From positions 62,001 to 126,000 of the forward strand of contig JBFMDX010000001.1 in NCBI GenBank assembly GCA_040753795.1: a stretch of DNA of 64,000 nt, written 5' to 3'. The DNA comes from Thermodesulfobacteriota bacterium. Its GTDB lineage: Bacteria; Desulfobacterota; Desulfobacteria; Desulfobacterales; Desulfosudaceae. Positions 23,976 through 35,849 of the stretch are shown here, piece after piece. How positions within the stretch are numbered: position 1 is the first letter of the stretch; each line of letters starts with the position of its first letter. A program made the position numbers and the translations under genes. The notes beneath the pieces are model-generated. The model was not told where the DNA came from and did no database searches. It worked only from the letters and a program-made list of their open reading frames with translations.

Positions 23976-24004
23976 TTGACATTACATGTCATTGGCAATA
24001 TAAA
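23976..24004 (+). promoter_or_regulatory. Strong promoter of the zapB-zapA-6S RNA unit
   Basis: TTGACA (23976-23981), 17 bases, TATAAA (23999-24004), just after the stop of the GlmU-like gene. Near-consensus sigma-70 promoter. Confidence 0.8.
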
Positions 24005-24037
24005 TAATACATAATCTAGAGAGGTGTTTTGGGAACC

Positions 24038-24280
24038 ATGGGAAATGAGCAGCTTTTTTCACAATTTGAAGAGATCGAGAAAAAAGTAGAAAAATTGTTT
24101 GATAAAATTCAATCGCTTGAATCAATTAATGCACAACTGAAAGAAACGATTTCGGATCTTGAGAAGGGAGCCAGGAAAAAAGCAGAGGAAGAAGAAAAGT
24201 ACAGTGAGGAAAAGGCTTTGATTAGGTCCAAGGTTGATGGGTTAATTCAGAAAATAAATGCGTTTGTATCACAGGTGTAA
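24038..24280 (+). CDS. zapB: Short coiled-coil protein, ZapB-like
   Basis: 80 residues from ATG 24038; a TTG nine bases upstream is closer to the GAGAGG site and is an alternative start. Almost the whole chain is one charged coiled coil (IEKKVEKLFDKIQSLESINA). Its position directly before zapA supports a Z-ring role as a ZapB-type cell-division factor. Short coiled coils are easily confused, so the symbol rests on context. Confidence 0.65.
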   Translation: MGNEQLFSQFEEIEKKVEKLFDKIQSLESINAQLKETISDLEKGARKKAEEEEKYSEEKALIRSKVDGLIQKINAFVSQV

Positions 24281-24316
24281 CAAAGATATTTTTCAGCAGT
24301 ACAACAGGGCTGATTA

Positions 24317-24604
24317 TTGACTGAAGATATAACGATAACGCTGTTGGGAAAAAGGTTAAGGTTCACGGCGGACGAGGGTGTCGCCGATGCCAGGCGGGTT
24401 GCGGAATTACTGACGCAGGAAGTGCATAAAGTAACAGCCAGAGAAAAACAACCGTCCAGCATGGATAATTTCGCCAAGCTGACTCAAGCCGCCCTGAATA
24501 TAGCAAATGATTTTGTCGAACTGCAGCGACGATATACGGAACTGGAAAAAAAATTTACAGACAGATCAAATGCTTTGCTCAAATCAATAAACGCCCGTTT
24601 GTAA
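24317..24604 (+). CDS. zapA: Cell-division protein ZapA
   Basis: 95 residues with a TTG start, seven bases after AGGG. It has the ZapA N-terminal globular fold (ITITLLGKRLRFTADEG) and a C-terminal coiled-coil helix. ZapA crosslinks FtsZ filaments and binds ZapB. The 6S RNA gene follows immediately, as in many proteobacteria. Confidence 0.88.
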   Translation: MTEDITITLLGKRLRFTADEGVADARRVAELLTQEVHKVTAREKQPSSMDNFAKLTQAALNIANDFVELQRRYTELEKKFTDRSNALLKSINARL

Positions 24605-24674
24605 ATAAAGCTGCTGCTGTTATCCGTATAGCCTGTTTCACCTGTAAGGTGATGTAACATAATCAGAGCCTCAT

Positions 24675-24862
24675 GTTTGCCCCCTGCCGTGCAAGTGATT
24701 GACAGATGCTCTTTGTCCCAAATACAACAAGAAGGGAGCCGTCACTGATTTTGGTGTGCATGTTCTGCTGAAGCAGAAAAGCCTAAAAAAATCAAATGGC
24801 GCCCACGTTGTTAAAACCAGGTCAAAGACCTAACAACACGGCACAATGGCAGGGGGCTTTTT
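24675..24862 (+). ncRNA. ssrS: 6S RNA
   Basis: A closing stem of ten perfect pairs joins GCCCCCTGCC (24679-24688) and GGCAGGGGGC (24848-24857), about 180 bases apart, the usual 6S length. Inside, GGGAGCC pairs with GGCGCCC, and the apical part reads GGTGTGCATG, a TTCTGC/GCAGAA hairpin, then AAAGCCTAAAA, which matches the order of conserved elements of proteobacterial 6S RNA. A T run follows. It lies directly after zapA as expected. 6S RNA mimics an open promoter and sequesters the main RNA polymerase holoenzyme in slow growth. Confidence 0.88.
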
Positions 24863-25164
24863 TTTGTGCCGCGTTTCCGACCAGTAGACATCCTTCTTCC
24901 TCGCAGTAATTTCAGGTTACAAAAGAGACCCCATTTTCCCGCTTTCCGGGTGTTGTGCGTTAAGGCAGCCCTGAAAACGGTCGCGGACTTTCGGGTTGAC
25001 AAGACTTCAGGACAGTAGAAAGACAGAATTGAGTTTTTCGTGGGGTCGGTAAATCTATTTGGTCTTTACGTGGCATATGCCGCATAAGATGGGCTTGACA
25101 TGGCAGGGACGTTTTGTGACATACGCCGCTGCAAAATAATAATACTTGGTTGAGGGGATCAACA
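24863..25164. other. Non-coding stretch between 6S RNA and rny
   Basis: About 300 bases. TTGACA at 25095-25100 with a poor -10 (GACATA, 17 bases on) is the only promoter candidate for rny. CATATGCCGC and CATACGCCGC form an imperfect repeat 50 bases apart (from 25074 and 25120). I see no gene here. Confidence 0.5.
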
Positions 25165-26718
25165 ATGGAAATAATATTTGCGATATTGGGGCTGGCGGTC
25201 GGGCTTGTCTTGGCGATATGGGTCCGTAAGAAAAATTATATAAAGCAGATGGATGACGCCAGGGCCGAGTCCGGTCGCATTTTAGAAGACGCCCGGTTGC
25301 GGGCTGAAAATCTCATCAAAGAAGCCAAACTGGAGGCTAAAGACAGGCTTCTGAAGATGAAAAGCGATTTTGACGCTGAAACCATAGAAACCAAAGGAGA
25401 ACTGAAAAAACAGGAACAGCGCCTGATCTCTAAAGAGGAAAATCTGGATCGGAAATATGATCAGATCGAGCACAGAGAGCAGGAGGTTTATAAAAAAGAA
25501 AAATCTCTCCAGAAGCGGGAAGAAAATCTGGAAAAGAAAGAGACGGAATGCAATCGGATGTTTGATGAGCAGAAAAGGCAGCTGGAGGCCATTTCCGGTC
25601 TGACTTCCGATCAGGCCAAAGACATCCTGGTGCAATCCATGGAAGAAGATGCCCGGCATGAAGCCGCCAAACTGATTAAACGGATCACCACCGACGCCGA
25701 AGAGGAAGCCGACAAGAAGGCGAAAAAGATCATTGCCACCGCGATTCAACGTTATGCCGGCGATTTTGTCGCAGAACGGACTGTCTCCGTGGTTGAGTTA
25801 CCCGGAGATGAAATGAAGGGCCGGATTATCGGTCGGGAGGGTAGAAACATCCGGGCGCTGGAAGCCGCTACCGGTATTGATTTGATTATTGATGACACTC
25901 CGGAAGCGGTAATCCTGTCCGGGTTTAATCCGGTCCGGCGAGAGGTGGCGCGGATTTCCATTCAGCGGTTGATAGCCGACGGCCGCATTCATCCCGCCCG
26001 TATCGAGGATGTGGTTAAGAAAGTAAAAGCCGAGGTGGATGTCACCATCAAGGAAGCCGGTGAGCAGGCTGCTTTTGATACCGGCGTGCACGGCATCAAC
26101 CCCGAACTGATAAAAATTCTGGGCAGCCTGAAGTTCAGAACCAGTTTCGTCCAGAATGTGCTGCAGCATTCCGTGGAAGTGAGCTTCCTGTGCGGTATCA
26201 TGGCGACGGAGCTCGGCCTGGATGCCAAGCTTGCCAAGCGTATGGGCCTGCTTCATGACATCGGCAAGGCCATTGACCATGAGGTGGAGGGCCCCCATGC
26301 CCTTATCGGCGCCAATGTGGCTCAAAAGTACGGTGAATCGGCGGAGGTCACCCACGCCATTTCGGCCCATCATGAAGACGTGGCGCCGGAAACTGTTTAT
26401 GACCTTCTCGTCCAGGCCGCGGACGCTCTGTCCGGAGCCCGGCCGGGGGCGAGAAAAGAGCTCTTGGAAAACTATATCAAGCGGCTGGAGGACCTTGAGA
26501 AAATCGCTGCCGGATATAAGGGCGTGGCCAACGCCTTTGCCATTCAGGCCGGCCGGGAGTTGAGGGTAATGGTTGAGGGAGACAATATTTCCGATGAAAA
26601 GGCGGTATTGCTGAGCCGGGATATCGCCCGTGAAATAGAAGCCAAACTCACTTTCCCGGGCCAGATCAAGGTGACGGTGATCAGGGAAACCAGAGCCGTT
26701 GAATATGCCAACAAGTGA
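25165..26718 (+). CDS. rny: Ribonuclease Y
   Basis: 517 residues from ATG 25165, after GAGGGG; a TTG 15 bases upstream is possible. Layout: N-terminal membrane anchor (residues 2-20), a long charged coiled coil to ~residue 200, a KH domain ([19 protein letters not shown]), then an HD domain with metal ligands in [12 protein letters not shown]. Endonuclease that starts mRNA decay at the membrane. Followed closely by tyrS. Confidence 0.96.
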
Positions 26719-26740
26719 GCCGGTTAAGGGGTTTTTGATA

Positions 26741-28087
26741 ATGAATGTCCTTGATGTATTGCAGGAGCGGGGATTCGTGGCGGAAATGACGCATCCCGAG
26801 GAGTTGCGGGACGCCCTGGGAAGCCGGCGCCTCGTCTGCTATATCGGTTTTGATCCCACGGCCTCAAGCCTTCATGTGGGCAGCCTGGTGCCGATCATGG
26901 CACTGGCGCATATGCAGCGAAACGGACATCTGCCCATCGCGCTGATGGGCGGGGGGACCGGTCTGGTCGGTGACCCCAGCGGCAAGACGGAAATGCGCAA
27001 GCTGATCACGGTTGAAGATGTCAATGAAAACGTCAAGGGGATTCGAGGCCAGCTGGAGCGGTTTATCGATTTTGCGGAAGGGCGGGCGAAGCTGGAGAAT
27101 AACGCCGAATGGCTGTTGCCGATTAATTACATCGAATTTTTAAGAGATATCGGCCGGTATTTCAGCGTTAACCGCATGATTAAAGCCGAAAGCTATAAGA
27201 TGCGTCTTGATTCCGAAGACGGGTTGAGCTTTATTGAGTTCAACTACATGTTGCTGCAGGCCTATGATTTTTTGCAGCTTTTTGACAAACACCAATGCGT
27301 TCTGCAGATGGGCGGCAGCGACCAGTGGGGCAACATCGTGGCCGGCATTGATCTGGTCCGGCGAGTGCGCAACGCGCAGGTGTACGGGCTGACTTTCCCG
27401 CTGATAACGACCAGCAGCGGCGCCAAAATGGGAAAGACTGCGGCCGGCGCGGTCTGGCTTGATTCCGACCGGACCTCGCCTTATGAATATTACCAGTACT
27501 GGATTAATACCCATGACGATGACGTCGCCCGGTTTCTGGCTCTGTTTACCTTTCTACCCATGGAGGAGATCAATCGGGTAAAGTCGCTTGCAGGGGCCGA
27601 TTTGAACGCGGCCAAGACCATTTTAGCTTTTGAGGCGACCACCATCGCGCATGGTATGGACAAGGCGATTAAGGCGCATCAGGATACGATTAAAAAATTT
27701 GGCGTCCGGAATATTCCCGAAGATCTATTGCCATCCAGTGCCGTACCGAGGGACACCGTTATTATTGCGTCTCCGGCTGATTTGGCCTTTTCAGGTTCTT
27801 CGGATATTTCTGTTGCCATGGCCGGCGAGCCGCAAACCAAATTGCCTTTATCGACCATTAAAGCCGGCATTTCAGCCGTGGATCTTTTTAACACCACCGG
27901 TCTGGCCCAATCCAAAGGAGCCGCCCGGCGGTTGATTCAGCAGGGCGGTGTTTATATCAATGGTCAGCGTCTGGAATCGGTGGATTATTGCGTGACGGCC
28001 GACGATATCAGGGACGGGGAAATCGTACTCAGAGCCGGTAAAAAGAAATACCACACGATTAGAATCCAGGACGACCTCAAGGCTTGA
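26741..28087 (+). CDS. tyrS: Tyrosyl-tRNA synthetase
   Basis: 448 residues from ATG 26741, which follows AAGGGG; an upstream in-frame start overlaps rny. Class I signature HVGSLVPIMALAHMQ (HIGH-like), KMGKT in place of KMSKS, QMGGSDQWGNI for the tyrosine site, and a C-terminal S4 RNA-binding domain (GAARRLIQQGGVYINGQ). Charges tRNA-Tyr. The C-terminal half has an insertion-like segment around residues 335-370, as in longer bacterial TyrRS. Confidence 0.97.
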   Translation: MNVLDVLQERGFVAEMTHPEELRDALGSRRLVCYIGFDPTASSLHVGSLVPIMALAHMQRNGHLPIALMGGGTGLVGDPSGKTEMRKLITVEDVNENVKGIRGQLERFIDFAEGRAKLENNAEWLLPINYIEFLRDIGRYFSVNRMIKAESYKMRLDSEDGLSFIEFNYMLLQAYDFLQLFDKHQCVLQMGGSDQWGNIVAGIDLVRRVRNAQVYGLTFPLITTSSGAKMGKTAAGAVWLDSDRTSPYEYYQYWINTHDDDVARFLALFTFLPMEEINRVKSLAGADLNAAKTILAFEATTIAHGMDKAIKAHQDTIKKFGVRNIPEDLLPSSAVPRDTVIIASPADLAFSGSSDISVAMAGEPQTKLPLSTIKAGISAVDLFNTTGLAQSKGAARRLIQQGGVYINGQRLESVDYCVTADDIRDGEIVLRAGKKKYHTIRIQDDLKA

Positions 28088-28114
28088 TAGACCGGCATTG
28101 CACCAGGATTGATC

Positions 28115-28143
28115 TTGACAACCGTTGAGATTTTGCGTAAGCG
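28115..28143 (+). promoter_or_regulatory. Possible promoter ahead of the cobalamin riboswitch
   Basis: Perfect TTGACA at 28115-28120; the -10 region 17 bases on (TAAGCG) is weak. It lies ~40 bases ahead of the aptamer, the right place for it. Confidence 0.35.
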
Positions 28144-28157
28144 AAAAATAGTTACAC

Positions 28158-28352
28158 CAAGGTGCCGTGACCGTTGCCCGGAAGGGCCGGTCGATAACGG
28201 GTAAAAGGAAAGATGGTGCAAGTCCATCGCATCCCAGCCGTTGCCGTAAGCGGGGACAAAAACCGCCTGATGCCACTTCTGGTGAGAATTCGCCGGGGGG
28301 AAGGCGCGGTTTAAGAATGATCCGTAAGCCGGAAAGCCTGCCTGGTTGTGTT
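28158..28352 (+). promoter_or_regulatory. Cobalamin (B12) riboswitch
   Basis: Conserved elements appear in order: AAGGTGCC near 28159, AAAGGAAAGATGGTGCAAGTCC in the B12-box region (about 28205-28226), CCGTAAGCGGGGAC, TGATGCCACTT, GGTGAGAA, and the closing CCGTAAGCCGGAAAGCCTGCC near 28322-28342. A following imperfect hairpin (TGGATAAAA with TTTTTATCAGG, 28369-28403) ends at the CAGGAGG ribosome site of the next gene, which suggests translational control. It should lower expression when adenosyl- or methylcobalamin is plentiful. Confidence 0.92.
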
Positions 28353-28410
28353 TAATCGAATTTTTGCTGGATAAAATTCTTCTGAGGTATTTTTTATCAG
28401 GAGGTGTTTT

Positions 28411-29541
28411 ATGCCGGCAGAAATCGACCGCAATTTCGGGGCCCTCATCTCCCGCCTGGCCCGCCATCAGGATCTTACCCGTGAGGAAAGCAGTCAGGCG
28501 TTTTCCGCTGTTTTAAATGACGCTACCACTTCCATGCAGCAGGGCGCCTTTCTGGCCGCCCTGGCCACCAAGGGCGAAACCGGAGAGGAAATGGCCGGCG
28601 CCTGGGAAGCCATCTTCAATCTGGATACGGTCAAAATAAATTTGTTGCCACCCCGGCCGCTGGTGGAGAACAGCGGTACAGGAATGGATGCCTTCAAAAC
28701 GTTTAATATCAGCACCGCGGCCGCGGTTATCGCTGCCGCCGGCGGCCTTTCCATGGCGCGCCACGGCGCCCGCGCCATTACTTCAGCCTGCGGGACGGTG
28801 GATATGGCCGAGGCGGTGGGCGTGGATGTGGAGTGCCCTGTTGAGATGGTGGCGGAAAGCATTGCCCGGGCCGGAATCGGGTTGTTTAACGGCATGAGTC
28901 CGACCATTCATCCCGGATCGCTGGCTAGAATCCTTTCTCAGATTCATTTCGGGTCCATCCTGAACATCGCGGCATCCCTGGCCAATCCGGCCATGCCCGT
29001 AATCGGGGTGAGAGGCGTTTATTCCGAAGCAATGATATTGCCGGTAGTCCGGCTGATGAAATCCATCGGCTATAAGAAAGCGATTGGTCTTTACGGCACG
29101 ATTACCGGCCTTGATGGGGGAATGGACGAAGCCTCTGTCTGCGGGCCCACTCATTGCGCCGAATTGCGCGAATCAGGAGACATAAGAGCGTTTACGCTCT
29201 ATCCTGAAGATTACGGCTTGCGGGCAACGAATCCCCAAGACCTGGCGCCGTCGGGCGGCCTTGCCGCCGAAGCCCGTCGTTTTGTTTCGTTGCTGCAAAA
29301 CCGGGAAAACGGCATCCGGAAAGATGCGGTGTTGCTGAATGCCGCCCTTGTTTTTTATGCTGCCGGAACCGTATCCGGTATTGATGGCGGGCTGCAGAAA
29401 GCGACCCGGCTGCTGGAAAACGGTCAAGCGTTTGCGACGCTGACGGCCTGGGTTGCCGCGCAAAACCGGGAGCCGGAGAAAGGGTTGCGAACACTGGAAC
29501 GACTGGCCGATCCGGGCTGCTTAAGAAAGGAGAGGTCATGA
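28411..29541 (+). CDS. TrpD-family phosphoribosyltransferase under B12 control; substrate unknown
   Basis: 376 residues, closest in pattern to anthranilate phosphoribosyltransferase. The PRPP loop is GTGMD (residues 89-93, usually GTGGD), then TFNIST (97-102), RHGAR (117-121, usually KHGNR), and the metal pair Asp239-Glu240 within DEASVCGPTHCAEL. In the segment that is normally LGxRTIFN in TrpD the Arg that holds the anthranilate carboxylate is replaced by Gly181 (FGSILN). So the PRPP chemistry looks kept but the acceptor is probably not anthranilate. No trp gene is near. With a cobalamin riboswitch in front, a role in cobamide lower-ligand activation is a reasonable guess. Start follows CAGGAGG. 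Confidence 0.8.
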   Translation: MPAEIDRNFGALISRLARHQDLTREESSQAFSAVLNDATTSMQQGAFLAALATKGETGEEMAGAWEAIFNLDTVKINLLPPRPLVENSGTGMDAFKTFNISTAAAVIAAAGGLSMARHGARAITSACGTVDMAEAVGVDVECPVEMVAESIARAGIGLFNGMSPTIHPGSLARILSQIHFGSILNIAASLANPAMPVIGVRGVYSEAMILPVVRLMKSIGYKKAIGLYGTITGLDGGMDEASVCGPTHCAELRESGDIRAFTLYPEDYGLRATNPQDLAPSGGLAAEARRFVSLLQNRENGIRKDAVLLNAALVFYAAGTVSGIDGGLQKATRLLENGQAFATLTAWVAAQNREPEKGLRTLERLADPGCLRKERS

Positions 29542-30509
29542 GACTGATGCTGACCGGCTCCGGGCAGATGGAAGTAATGCGTGACGATAACCATCCGTCT
29601 TCAGGGGTTGGTGAAATTCCGTTGAAGGTGCTGTATTGCGGCGTTTGCAGGACGGACGCTAAAATGTGGGCCCAGGGGCACCGGGATCTGGTTCTGCCCC
29701 GGGTTCCCGGGCATGAAATCGTTGCGATTGATGGCCGAGGACGGCGTTACGTGGTCTGGCCCGGAGACAGTTGCGGCGAATGCGATTTCTGCCGGGGCGA
29801 TCGTGAAAACCTTTGCCGTCGGTTGAAGATAATCGGGTTTCATCGGGACGGAGGATTTGCGGACCGGATAAACGTTCCCGAAGCCGCTCTGATTCCATTC
29901 CCGGAAACACTGGATCCGCTTGTCGCCTGCCTGGCTGAACCGGCCGGGTGCGTGCTGCACGCGCTGGACAAATGCCGGCTTGGCGCCGGTGCCCGCGTTC
30001 TGATTTATGGCGGTGGTACCATGGGGCTTTTGAGCGCGCTGGCAGCGGCAGCCTGCGGCGCCGTGCCGATTGTGATTGAACCGAACGCGGCCAAACGGCG
30101 GGCGGCACAAATACTGCTGGACGAGAGCGCGGCGATGTGTCTGGCGGAAACAGAAGAGACGGAAGTCGATGCGGTGATCAACGCCTGCCCGGACGCGGCG
30201 GCGTTTGCCCGGGGATTGACGCGGCTTTGCTGTGGCGGGTGTTTCTGCTTTTTCAGCGGACTCAATGCGGACAATGCTTTCCCGGCAGATCTGATCAATC
30301 ATATTCACTACCGTGAAATTACCGTTATCGGAAGTTACGGGCTGACGCGTTCGGATATGCGCCGTGCCATTGCCTTTCTGAAGGACCGGCAACCGGTCGC
30401 TGGCGCTTTGATACAGGCTATTGCCGGACCGGAAGAAGCGCCTGGCCTGATGCCGCGGGTGTTGGCGGGCGGCGGATTTAAATATATTCTGAATTTTTGC
30501 GATTTGTGA
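29538..30509 (+). CDS. Zinc-dependent medium-chain dehydrogenase, B12-operon partner
   Basis: 323 residues, MDR superfamily. Catalytic zinc region Cys34-Gly-Val-Cys37 and GHE at 58-60; structural zinc set Cys79, Cys82, Cys85 and Cys93; Rossmann loop YGGGTMGLLSA near residue 156. Shorter than typical alcohol dehydrogenases (~340-350). It overlaps the TrpD-like gene by four bases (ATGA) and so shares the riboswitch. The substrate is unknown; oxidation or reduction of a cobamide ligand precursor or a corrinoid-linked alcohol is conceivable. Confidence 0.82.
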   Translation: MRLMLTGSGQMEVMRDDNHPSSGVGEIPLKVLYCGVCRTDAKMWAQGHRDLVLPRVPGHEIVAIDGRGRRYVVWPGDSCGECDFCRGDRENLCRRLKIIGFHRDGGFADRINVPEAALIPFPETLDPLVACLAEPAGCVLHALDKCRLGAGARVLIYGGGTMGLLSALAAAACGAVPIVIEPNAAKRRAAQILLDESAAMCLAETEETEVDAVINACPDAAAFARGLTRLCCGGCFCFFSGLNADNAFPADLINHIHYREITVIGSYGLTRSDMRRAIAFLKDRQPVAGALIQAIAGPEEAPGLMPRVLAGGGFKYILNFCDL

Positions 30510-30519
30510 AAAAAAGCTC

Positions 30520-30548
30520 TTGACATGCCGGGAGCGAGAGCGTAAAAG
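30520..30548 (+). promoter_or_regulatory. rRNA operon promoter P1 (candidate)
   Basis: TTGACA (30520-30525) and TAAAAG (30543-30548), 17 bases apart. Confidence 0.5.
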
Positions 30549-30550
30549 GG

Positions 30551-30606
30551 TGAAACTTTGACGGTGTTCCGAAGAAAATGAACACCGAAAAAAGATGAAA
30601 CTTTGA
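30551..30606 (+). repeat. Direct repeat and inverted repeat between rRNA promoters
   Basis: TGAAACTTTGA occurs at 30551-30561 and again at 30596-30606. Between them CGGTGTTC (30562-30569) and GAACACCG (30580-30587) form a perfect 8-base inverted repeat. No T run follows, so it is not a terminator for the gene before. The symmetry is that of a protein-binding site. Confidence 0.6.
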
Positions 30607-30616
30607 AAAAAAAGTC

Positions 30617-30645
30617 TTGACAGTATCAATAACGGCCGTTATATT
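30617..30645 (+). promoter_or_regulatory. rRNA operon promoter P2
   Basis: TTGACA (30617-30622), 17 bases, TATATT (30640-30645). Near-consensus; transcription would begin near 30652, just at the 16S processing stem. Confidence 0.85.
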
Positions 30646-30654
30646 ACGTCCGTT

Positions 30655-30686
30655 AAACTTGATCTTTGAAAACTAAATAGTAACAG
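30655..30686 (+). other. 16S precursor processing stem, 5' arm
   Basis: This 32-base segment is nearly perfectly complementary to 32349-32380 downstream of the 16S gene, with a three-base mismatch in the middle. The pair would bring the 16S ends together for RNase III-type cleavage. Confidence 0.85.
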
Positions 30687-30754
30687 CATGCTCGGATTTG
30701 ACCCAATTAATTCCATGTCGCTTCCGGTACCAACTGGTAGCGATTTTTTAATTT

Positions 30755-32324
<1,570 letters not shown>

Positions 32325-32446
32325 AAGAAAATTTAAAAAAATTCGACACTGTTACTATTTAGTTTTGAGGGATCAAGTTTTATTTTTGTTCTTTGTCTTA
32401 TGGAAAGTGAAATGGGGCTGATTCCGAGCTGATGAAGGCACCATTT

Positions 32447-32525
<79 letters not shown>

Positions 32526-32572
32526 TATTGTTACCGTGAGTTCCATTGACCCTGATTTTAGCAATTTGAATT

Positions 32573-32648
32573 GGGGGTGTAGCTCAGCTGGGAGAGCGCC
32601 TGCCTTGCACGCAGGAGGCCATCGGTTCGAACCCGTTCACCTCCACCA
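32573..32648 (+). tRNA. tRNA-Ala (TGC anticodon)
   Basis: 76 bases. Acceptor GGGGGTG pairs with CACCTCC (one G-T pair), then A and CCA. Anticodon arm CTGCC-TTGCACG-CAGG-type stem gives TGC. Second spacer tRNA. Confidence 0.97.
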
Positions 32649-32763
32649 AAGTGTATTCAATACGTTATCTTGTGAATGGTTGACCAGGGATTACGAATAT
32701 ATAAAACATGATTCGTCGTCTCTGATCTGTAATTCACATTACAGAGATGCACTGTTCTTTGAC

Positions 32764-32797
32764 AAATAGAATGTAGACGCATTTTAAGCGTTCATGG
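32764..32797 (+). other. 23S precursor processing stem, 5' arm
   Basis: Pairs with 35867-35900 after the 23S gene (AAATAGAATGTA with TACATTCTATTT-type ends, and CGTTCATGG with CCATGAACG). It would form the long RNase III stem enclosing 23S RNA. Confidence 0.8.
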
Positions 32798-32815
32798 TGT
32801 TTTCTGGCAATACAA

Positions 32816-35849
<3,034 letters not shown>

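Follow-up and report, generated by a model that had tools for sequence, protein, structure and literature searches.

Why should a relative of the tryptophan enzyme TrpD be placed under a cobalamin (B12) riboswitch, together with a dehydrogenase? The question is raised by a locus of a Thermodesulfobacteriota bacterium (assembly GCA_040753795.1), which we analyzed in a window of 64,000 nucleotides (contig JBFMDX010000001.1, positions 62,001 to 126,000). The riboswitch precedes two genes on the + strand. TrpDL (28411..29541) encodes a TrpD-family phosphoribosyltransferase paralogue of 376 residues, in which A120 and G181 replace an Asn and an Arg of TrpD; ADH (29538..30509) encodes a zinc-dependent dehydrogenase of the medium-chain dehydrogenase/reductase family, which is 323 residues in length. 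The riboswitch, the gene pair itself, the CobT neighborhood and fusion in relatives, and a partition with BzaF-like genes are seen at the sequence level; the neighborhood and fusion tie the pair to lower-ligand metabolism. With somewhat better than even confidence, we read TrpDL-ADH as a B12-regulated module of late nucleotide-loop cobamide synthesis, which works with CobT and supplies its base, by making, salvaging or pre-activating it.

Linkage of the pair to CobT

TrpDL was counted in a sample of 291 genomes of the class at a score of at least 315 bits; one genome with a split gene (G180, fragments of 217–221 bits) was added, and the next rows scored below 190 bits. By this measure, 61 genomes carry TrpDL, including that of the window. 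CobT was sought in the 60 class loci (L038–L097), on the same strand and in a stretch reaching from 5 kb ahead of TrpDL to 6 kb beyond it. An ADH homologue adjoins TrpDL in 55 of these loci; among the other five, L070, L089 and L097 run off the contig, whereas L073 and L096 have room yet lack ADH. A same-strand CobT match lies near TrpDL in 35 of the 60. ADH and CobT are fused in frame in 24 of them, forming one polypeptide of ∼700 residues in the order TrpDL-ADH~CobT; in the other 11, cobT is a separate gene and the order is ADH-TrpDL-CobT. The fused CobT of L101 (Desulfospira joergensenii) can be aligned with solved CobTs almost from end to end and retains LGEGTGA.

In a CobT tree of 85 rows, for which the fused rows were thinned to 24, the fused CobTs, the group-2 neighbor CobTs and the CobTs adjacent to BzaF-like genes (defined below) form three clades; the CobT of the window's own genome belongs to the last one. 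The unfused CobT of L220, which comes from a TrpDL-negative genome, sits within the fused clade. Because the CobT clades are separate and the gene orders are two, CobT and the pair came together on at least two occasions; these independent joinings are the strongest evidence that the pair and CobT share a job.

CobT (match at E 0.001) is present in 59 of the 61 TrpDL-positive genomes versus 171 of the 230 TrpDL-negative ones (p 3e-5), and in 19 of 21 genomes from named TrpDL loci. An earlier note on this DNA, made from the sequence alone, had expected a role in lower-ligand or corrinoid metabolism, possibly as an alternative to CobT or as a new step. The first part is backed by the B12 riboswitch and by the CobT neighborhood and fusion in relatives. 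The alternative to CobT fell: the genome does have a cobT, which is preceded by its own B12 riboswitch, and in relatives CobT is often found in the same gene run as the pair or in one polypeptide with ADH. Replacement of CobT by the pair was rejected, CobT being both present and linked to it.

Recurrence of the pair in other Desulfobacterota, also considered in that note, was found in many of them. Among the best 80 of 369 relatives from named genomes (L099–L178, located by pattern and tblastn), most are from Desulfobacterales and Desulfobulbales; Desulfosporosinus, Pelotomaculum, Desulfitobacteriaceae and other Firmicutes are also represented; there is one Dehalococcoidia, and the record titles Bacteroidetes, Salinivirgaceae and Sabulitectum occur once each. 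As many of the 80 lie on contigs shared with the class loci, the counts given here use the class loci.

The riboswitch recurs as well. A match to RF00174 precedes the operon in 46 of the 57 class loci scanned (24/29 in L009–L037 and 22/28 in the others; the tally was made by hand, and three class loci stand outside the scan). Three of the 11 loci that lack it (L018, L090 and L092) have too little upstream contig; a low-threshold Rfam search, repeated for L018, L021, L024, L034 and L035, gave no riboswitch match. RF00174 was also found at 10 of the 13 named distant loci examined, including all eight of the order ADH-TrpDL (L156, L159, L161, L165, L172, L173, L175 and L176), whose records are titled Firmicutes members or Dehalococcoidia; it was not found at L146, L148 and L158. 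Cobalamin riboswitches are reported upstream of metE and nrdD (PMC8620254), and the pair could likewise be a B12-independent back-up enzyme pair outside cobamide synthesis. We hold this very improbable, as it is hard to see why such a back-up pair would neighbor CobT or be fused with it.

Further genes were noticed around TrpDL. In L146 and its twin L073, TrpDL lacks ADH and is followed by BtuF-, BtuC- and BtuD-like genes (named by eye), an arrangement that resembles a corrinoid-uptake operon; TonB-receptor-like open reading frames (ORFs), also named by eye, occur near TrpDL in some group 2 loci. Soon after TrpDL, many operons, some Firmicutes included, encode a protein of 64–67 residues (MELLIIKSG..YxR...LDKASVFP...IKKLxLTEE). 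Its alignment (A3) comprises L055:7965-8162 and 39 more rows; tblastn matches occur in 84 of the 141 loci L038–L178, which combine two sets that overlap; 83 of the matches reach E 3e-5 or better, and that of L173 has E 0.03. Four members gave no Pfam match over cut-off; the structure model is confident (predicted local distance difference test, pLDDT, 96), and its search found no PDB match below E 0.001. This small protein was not found in the window or in the rest of its genome.

TrpDL, ADH and their leader

The riboswitch aptamer (28143..28359, + strand) matches RF00174 with 81.7 bits, versus a gathering threshold of 31.5 (E 1.4e-18), and was recovered in the whole-genome search (G000:C1:90143-90359). 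It is followed by a predicted hairpin (28371..28412, + strand), in which the Shine-Dalgarno sequence AGGAGG (28399-28404) is paired with 28378-28383, as read off by script. The region 28330-28440 folds with -37.6 kcal/mol (z -3.9 against shuffles). This pairing in the modeled fold suggests translational control of the pair, with the hairpin as a possible expression platform. For cobT itself, repressing riboswitches and one activating riboswitch are described (PMC10653944); as an activating one is known, the sign of regulation at the window locus is not certain.

The two ORFs overlap through ATGA. The rRNA genes begin at 30755, the 16S start lying 246 bases past the end of the ADH gene, which makes the pair appear to be a unit of two genes in the window; its neighbors there are a tyrosyl-tRNA-synthetase-like ORF (by eye) and the rRNA. 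Besides TrpDL, no trp gene was seen among the ORFs of 24000-35000, which were named by eye. Elsewhere in the window, a 6S RNA (RF00013, 88.5 bits) was found at 24678-24859, with rny- and tyrS-like ORFs (identified by eye) downstream of it.

TrpDL contains the Glycos_transf_3 and Glycos_trans_3N domains. We compared 29 TrpDL proteins with 21 TrpD-family proteins of the same class, the TrpD of the window's genome among them. GTGxD, NxS, H118, R121 and D239-E240 are kept in the 29 TrpDL proteins; GTGxD, NxS and the DE pair are the phosphoribosyl pyrophosphate (PRPP) and metal motifs. Different from these, the residues on the acceptor side (G181, A/S120, R117, K96, N160 and R173) are altered and then conserved. 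Position 181, the Arg of LGxRTIFN, is Gly in 29/29 TrpDL rows versus R16, T3 and K2 in the TrpD family; position 120, the Asn of KHGNR, is Ala in 26/29 and Ser in 3/29 versus N18 and A3; position 117 is Arg versus K21. K96, N160, R173 and F180 are invariant across the TrpDL rows and variable in the TrpD rows. Three TrpD-family rows, probably L197, L198 and L215, have Lys for the His of KHGNR.

The Asn of KHGNR and the Arg of LGxR are anthranilate-site residues of TrpD, as are N138 and R193 of Mycobacterium tuberculosis TrpD; PDB titles include the N138A and R193L variants of that enzyme. With the carboxylate-binding Arg gone, anthranilate and nicotinate are disfavored as substrates of TrpDL, and loss of the carboxylate-holding residues points to a neutral acceptor.

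The observations of the earlier note on these elements were borne out: a canonical B12 riboswitch (its proposed start, 28158, falls within the aptamer), a TrpD relative without the anthranilate Arg but with PRPP motifs and metal acids kept, no trp genes nearby, and a zinc dehydrogenase, which is intact in its zinc ligands and NAD motifs. Loss of the Asn had not been part of that note.

Could TrpDL nevertheless be a second anthranilate phosphoribosyltransferase, merely brought under a B12 riboswitch? Its score against the trpD profile TIGR01245 is 229.3 bits, which exceeds the cut-off of 199.05. It also has the TrpD fold: the AlphaFold model has a mean pLDDT of 90.2, and each of the 50 Foldseek hits listed is an anthranilate phosphoribosyltransferase, with template-modeling scores of about 0.8. 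Against this, the anthranilate-site Asn and Arg are gone in all or nearly all rows, and the 29 TrpDL rows cluster together with support (100/97), separate from 18 TrpDs and from a third clade with three members, in a tree whose bootstrap is not settled and in which long branches are flagged. A further TrpD-family match (E 1e-30 or better; match counts, not each inspected) is present in 56 of the 61 TrpDL genomes, all except G087, G182, G233, G254 and G275. The window's genome has its other TrpD-family gene, 36% identical to TrpDL, on another contig between trpE/trpG and trpB/trpA. Like TrpD, TrpDL has the same fold and the PRPP-binding and metal motifs; different from TrpD, it lacks both anthranilate-site residues, lies outside trp genes and behind a B12 riboswitch, and forms its own clade. 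A true tryptophan TrpD was rejected on residues, clade and gene context, and we give a second anthranilate enzyme hardly any credence. The third, long-branched clade (L197, L198 and L215) represents a further TrpD paralogue.

In ADH, which contains PF08240 and PF00107, the catalytic zinc ligands C37, H59, E60 and E134 and the structural ones C79, C82, C85 and C93 are conserved in nearly all of 94–95 rows; GxGxxG and E181, the motifs for nicotinamide adenine dinucleotide (NAD), are retained. As zinc and NAD motifs are kept, a working, probably NAD(H)-linked enzyme is expected. ADH scores 84.2 bits with the L-threonine 3-dehydrogenase model TIGR00692, below its cut-off of 458.35. A threonine-dehydrogenase-type role in the aminopropanol linker, suggested by this weak similarity, was rejected: TrpDL and the CobT fusion give it no support.

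Proposed base supply and the BzaF-like genes

In the domain search, neither window protein matched the CobT domain PF02277 (DBI_PRT), and neither is ThiC-like, as BzaA, BzaB or BzaF would be. 5-Methylbenzimidazolyl cobamide is a product of some sulfate reducers. In several genomes there are two CobTs, of which one is fused to ADH and the other lies beside a ThiC-like gene whose product is 43–45% identical to the ThiC of the window's genome (seven loci). By position and by a custom profile, this ThiC-like gene is taken as BzaF-like. The profile, built from the seven proteins (A2) and used at E 1e-160, matches 76 of the 291 genomes: 65 score at least 750 bits, 10 score 664–691 bits, and one match is a fragment.

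The known bza-cobT sets (BzaF or BzaAB with CobT, for anaerobic benzimidazole synthesis) resemble TrpDL-ADH, as arranged in 35 of the 60 class loci though not in the window, in having their own CobT as a neighbor; they also occur in anaerobes that belong to the same order. Where a genome holds both, it usually has two CobTs. Different from these sets, TrpDL-ADH comprises a TrpD-family transferase and a zinc dehydrogenase and no ThiC-like radical S-adenosylmethionine (SAM) enzyme, and its linked CobT is of another clade and often fused to the dehydrogenase. We compared the 35 genomes with an operon CobT. Where this is the sole CobT, a BzaF-like gene is present in 1 of 19 genomes (G027, a weaker match of 663.8 bits), whereas it is present in 12 of the 16 with a further CobT (Fisher p 4e-5, for a comparison that was framed after the loci were viewed and that ignores relatedness). 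The number of CobTs thus tracks the number of ligand systems in these 35 genomes; this pattern shows up only if copies of CobT and their location are taken into account.

BluB is an oxygen-dependent enzyme of the nitroreductase family. Like the role that we propose for TrpDL-ADH, it supplies a base to CobT; different from the pair, it scores over cut-off in none of the 39 genomes that have TrpDL and CobT and lack the BzaF-like gene, all of which have weaker nitroreductase-family matches. Could the pair supply the donor instead of the base? TrpDL would then be a PRPP-dependent nicotinate (or similar) phosphoribosyltransferase, remaking nicotinate mononucleotide (NaMN) from the nicotinate that CobT releases. 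The kept PRPP motifs would suit this, as would a pair that is linked to CobTs of more than one clade. However, nicotinate has a carboxylate and its would-be Arg is gone in 29/29 rows; quinolinate phosphoribosyltransferase (NadC), a maker of NaMN, scores at least 190 bits in 36 of the 39 genomes, that of the window included, so NaMN is not an obvious gap; and ADH is left without a job. We consider donor supply quite unlikely.

The window's genome has a single ThiC-family gene, which scores as ThiC, and gives no match to the BzaF-like profile at E 1e-160. On its contig C3, a CbiZ domain is fused to a periplasmic binding protein (L179:8717-10756), downstream of a B12 riboswitch (C3:8093-8302); a second periplasmic binding protein of this kind and a TonB receptor lie behind other B12 riboswitches. 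These genes point to corrinoid uptake and probably remodeling, and a salvage role of the pair is possible. TrpDL, acting toward PRPP or as a phosphorylase, would free a base for CobT from external ribosides or ribotides. The BtuFCD-like genes next to TrpDL in L146, the TonB-receptor-like ORFs near some group 2 loci and weak matches of TrpDL to thymidine- and AMP-phosphorylase models are in line with it; ADH and the ADH-CobT fusion are left unexplained. Salvage or remodeling of this type is, in our judgment, unlikely. On the same contig, just downstream of cobT and on the same strand, lies a 530-residue radical SAM protein (L180:7262-8854); it weakly resembles B12-binding radical SAM enzymes and might modify a ligand.

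Several observations weigh against base supply in concert with CobT. No CobT was found near TrpDL in 25 of the 60 class loci, 7 of which reach the contig end within about 1 kb, and the window and its closest relatives (L038–L041) belong to this kind. CobT does not adjoin the pair in the Firmicutes-type loci, and a CobT match is lacking in L165 and L176, two of the 21 named genomes and both metagenome bins whose completeness is not known. Eight loci with upstream room lack RF00174 (L021, L024, L034, L035, L073, L087, L094 and L096), and TrpDL passes the trpD cut-off, as described above. The three BzaF-like proteins tested with NCBIfam models score as ThiC over cut-off and fall below the BzaB cut-off. 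Among CobT-positive genomes, the BzaF-like gene is present in 20 of 59 with TrpDL versus 54 of 171 without (p 0.75); a simple replacement of BzaF by TrpDL therefore failed as a prediction on presence and absence. Both TrpDL and the BzaF-like gene are missing from a further 117 CobT-positive genomes, which means that absence of a known base pathway is common. The pair looks like a CobT partner, plausibly on the base-supplying side, and we consider base supply, by synthesis or salvage, its most likely role.

Proposed mechanism and its meaning

In the mechanism that we propose, TrpDL would transfer the phosphoribosyl group of PRPP onto (or off) a neutral aromatic amine or base without a carboxylate. 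ADH would carry out an NAD-linked oxidation or reduction, either of the TrpDL compound or of the (phospho)ribosyl moiety on it. These reactions would yield the lower-ligand base or its direct precursor, which CobT would convert to the alpha-ribotide; the pair would thus take the part that BzaF or BluB takes elsewhere. When corrinoid is plentiful, the riboswitch would probably hide the ribosome-binding site and turn the pair off.

A bolder version, in which TrpDL-ADH is a third, hitherto undescribed route to the lower-ligand base after BluB and Bza, is possible but rather doubtful. Here, TrpDL would join PRPP to a neutral aromatic amine, and oxidation of the adduct by ADH would lead to ring closure or to departure of the sugar part; CobT, being fused to ADH in many relatives, could activate the base at once.

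Like CobT and ArsAB, TrpDL-ADH probably acts in the same part of metabolism and by phosphoribosyl chemistry; different from these, TrpDL is of another protein family, and CobT occurs alongside the pair, not in place of it. Operons of bza and cobT and a purine-activating CobT of Desulfitobacterium metallireducens are described (PMC8123684). For an Antarctic Chlorobium that also has B12 riboswitches, trpD, a dehydrogenase and cbiZ appear in the gene list of one figure legend, from which adjacency is not evident (PMC8620254). A TrpD relative or zinc dehydrogenase tied to CobT was not found described in the open PMC literature, in so far as its texts were accessible; subscription papers mostly fall outside that search.

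Whether an organism can use a given cobamide depends on the lower ligand. For 39 CobT-bearing genomes without a BzaF-like gene or a BluB over cut-off, TrpDL-ADH is now a named candidate for base supply. By profile score, TrpDL, and probably its relatives too, would be misnamed trpD. The cobamide form could be predicted for 58% of producing species (PMC6461909), and for marine sulfate reducers and some of the Firmicutes, TrpDL-ADH may serve as a marker of the type of cobamide made. If the third route is true, anaerobes such as sulfate reducers would gain a source of the base beyond the reach of the bza genes.

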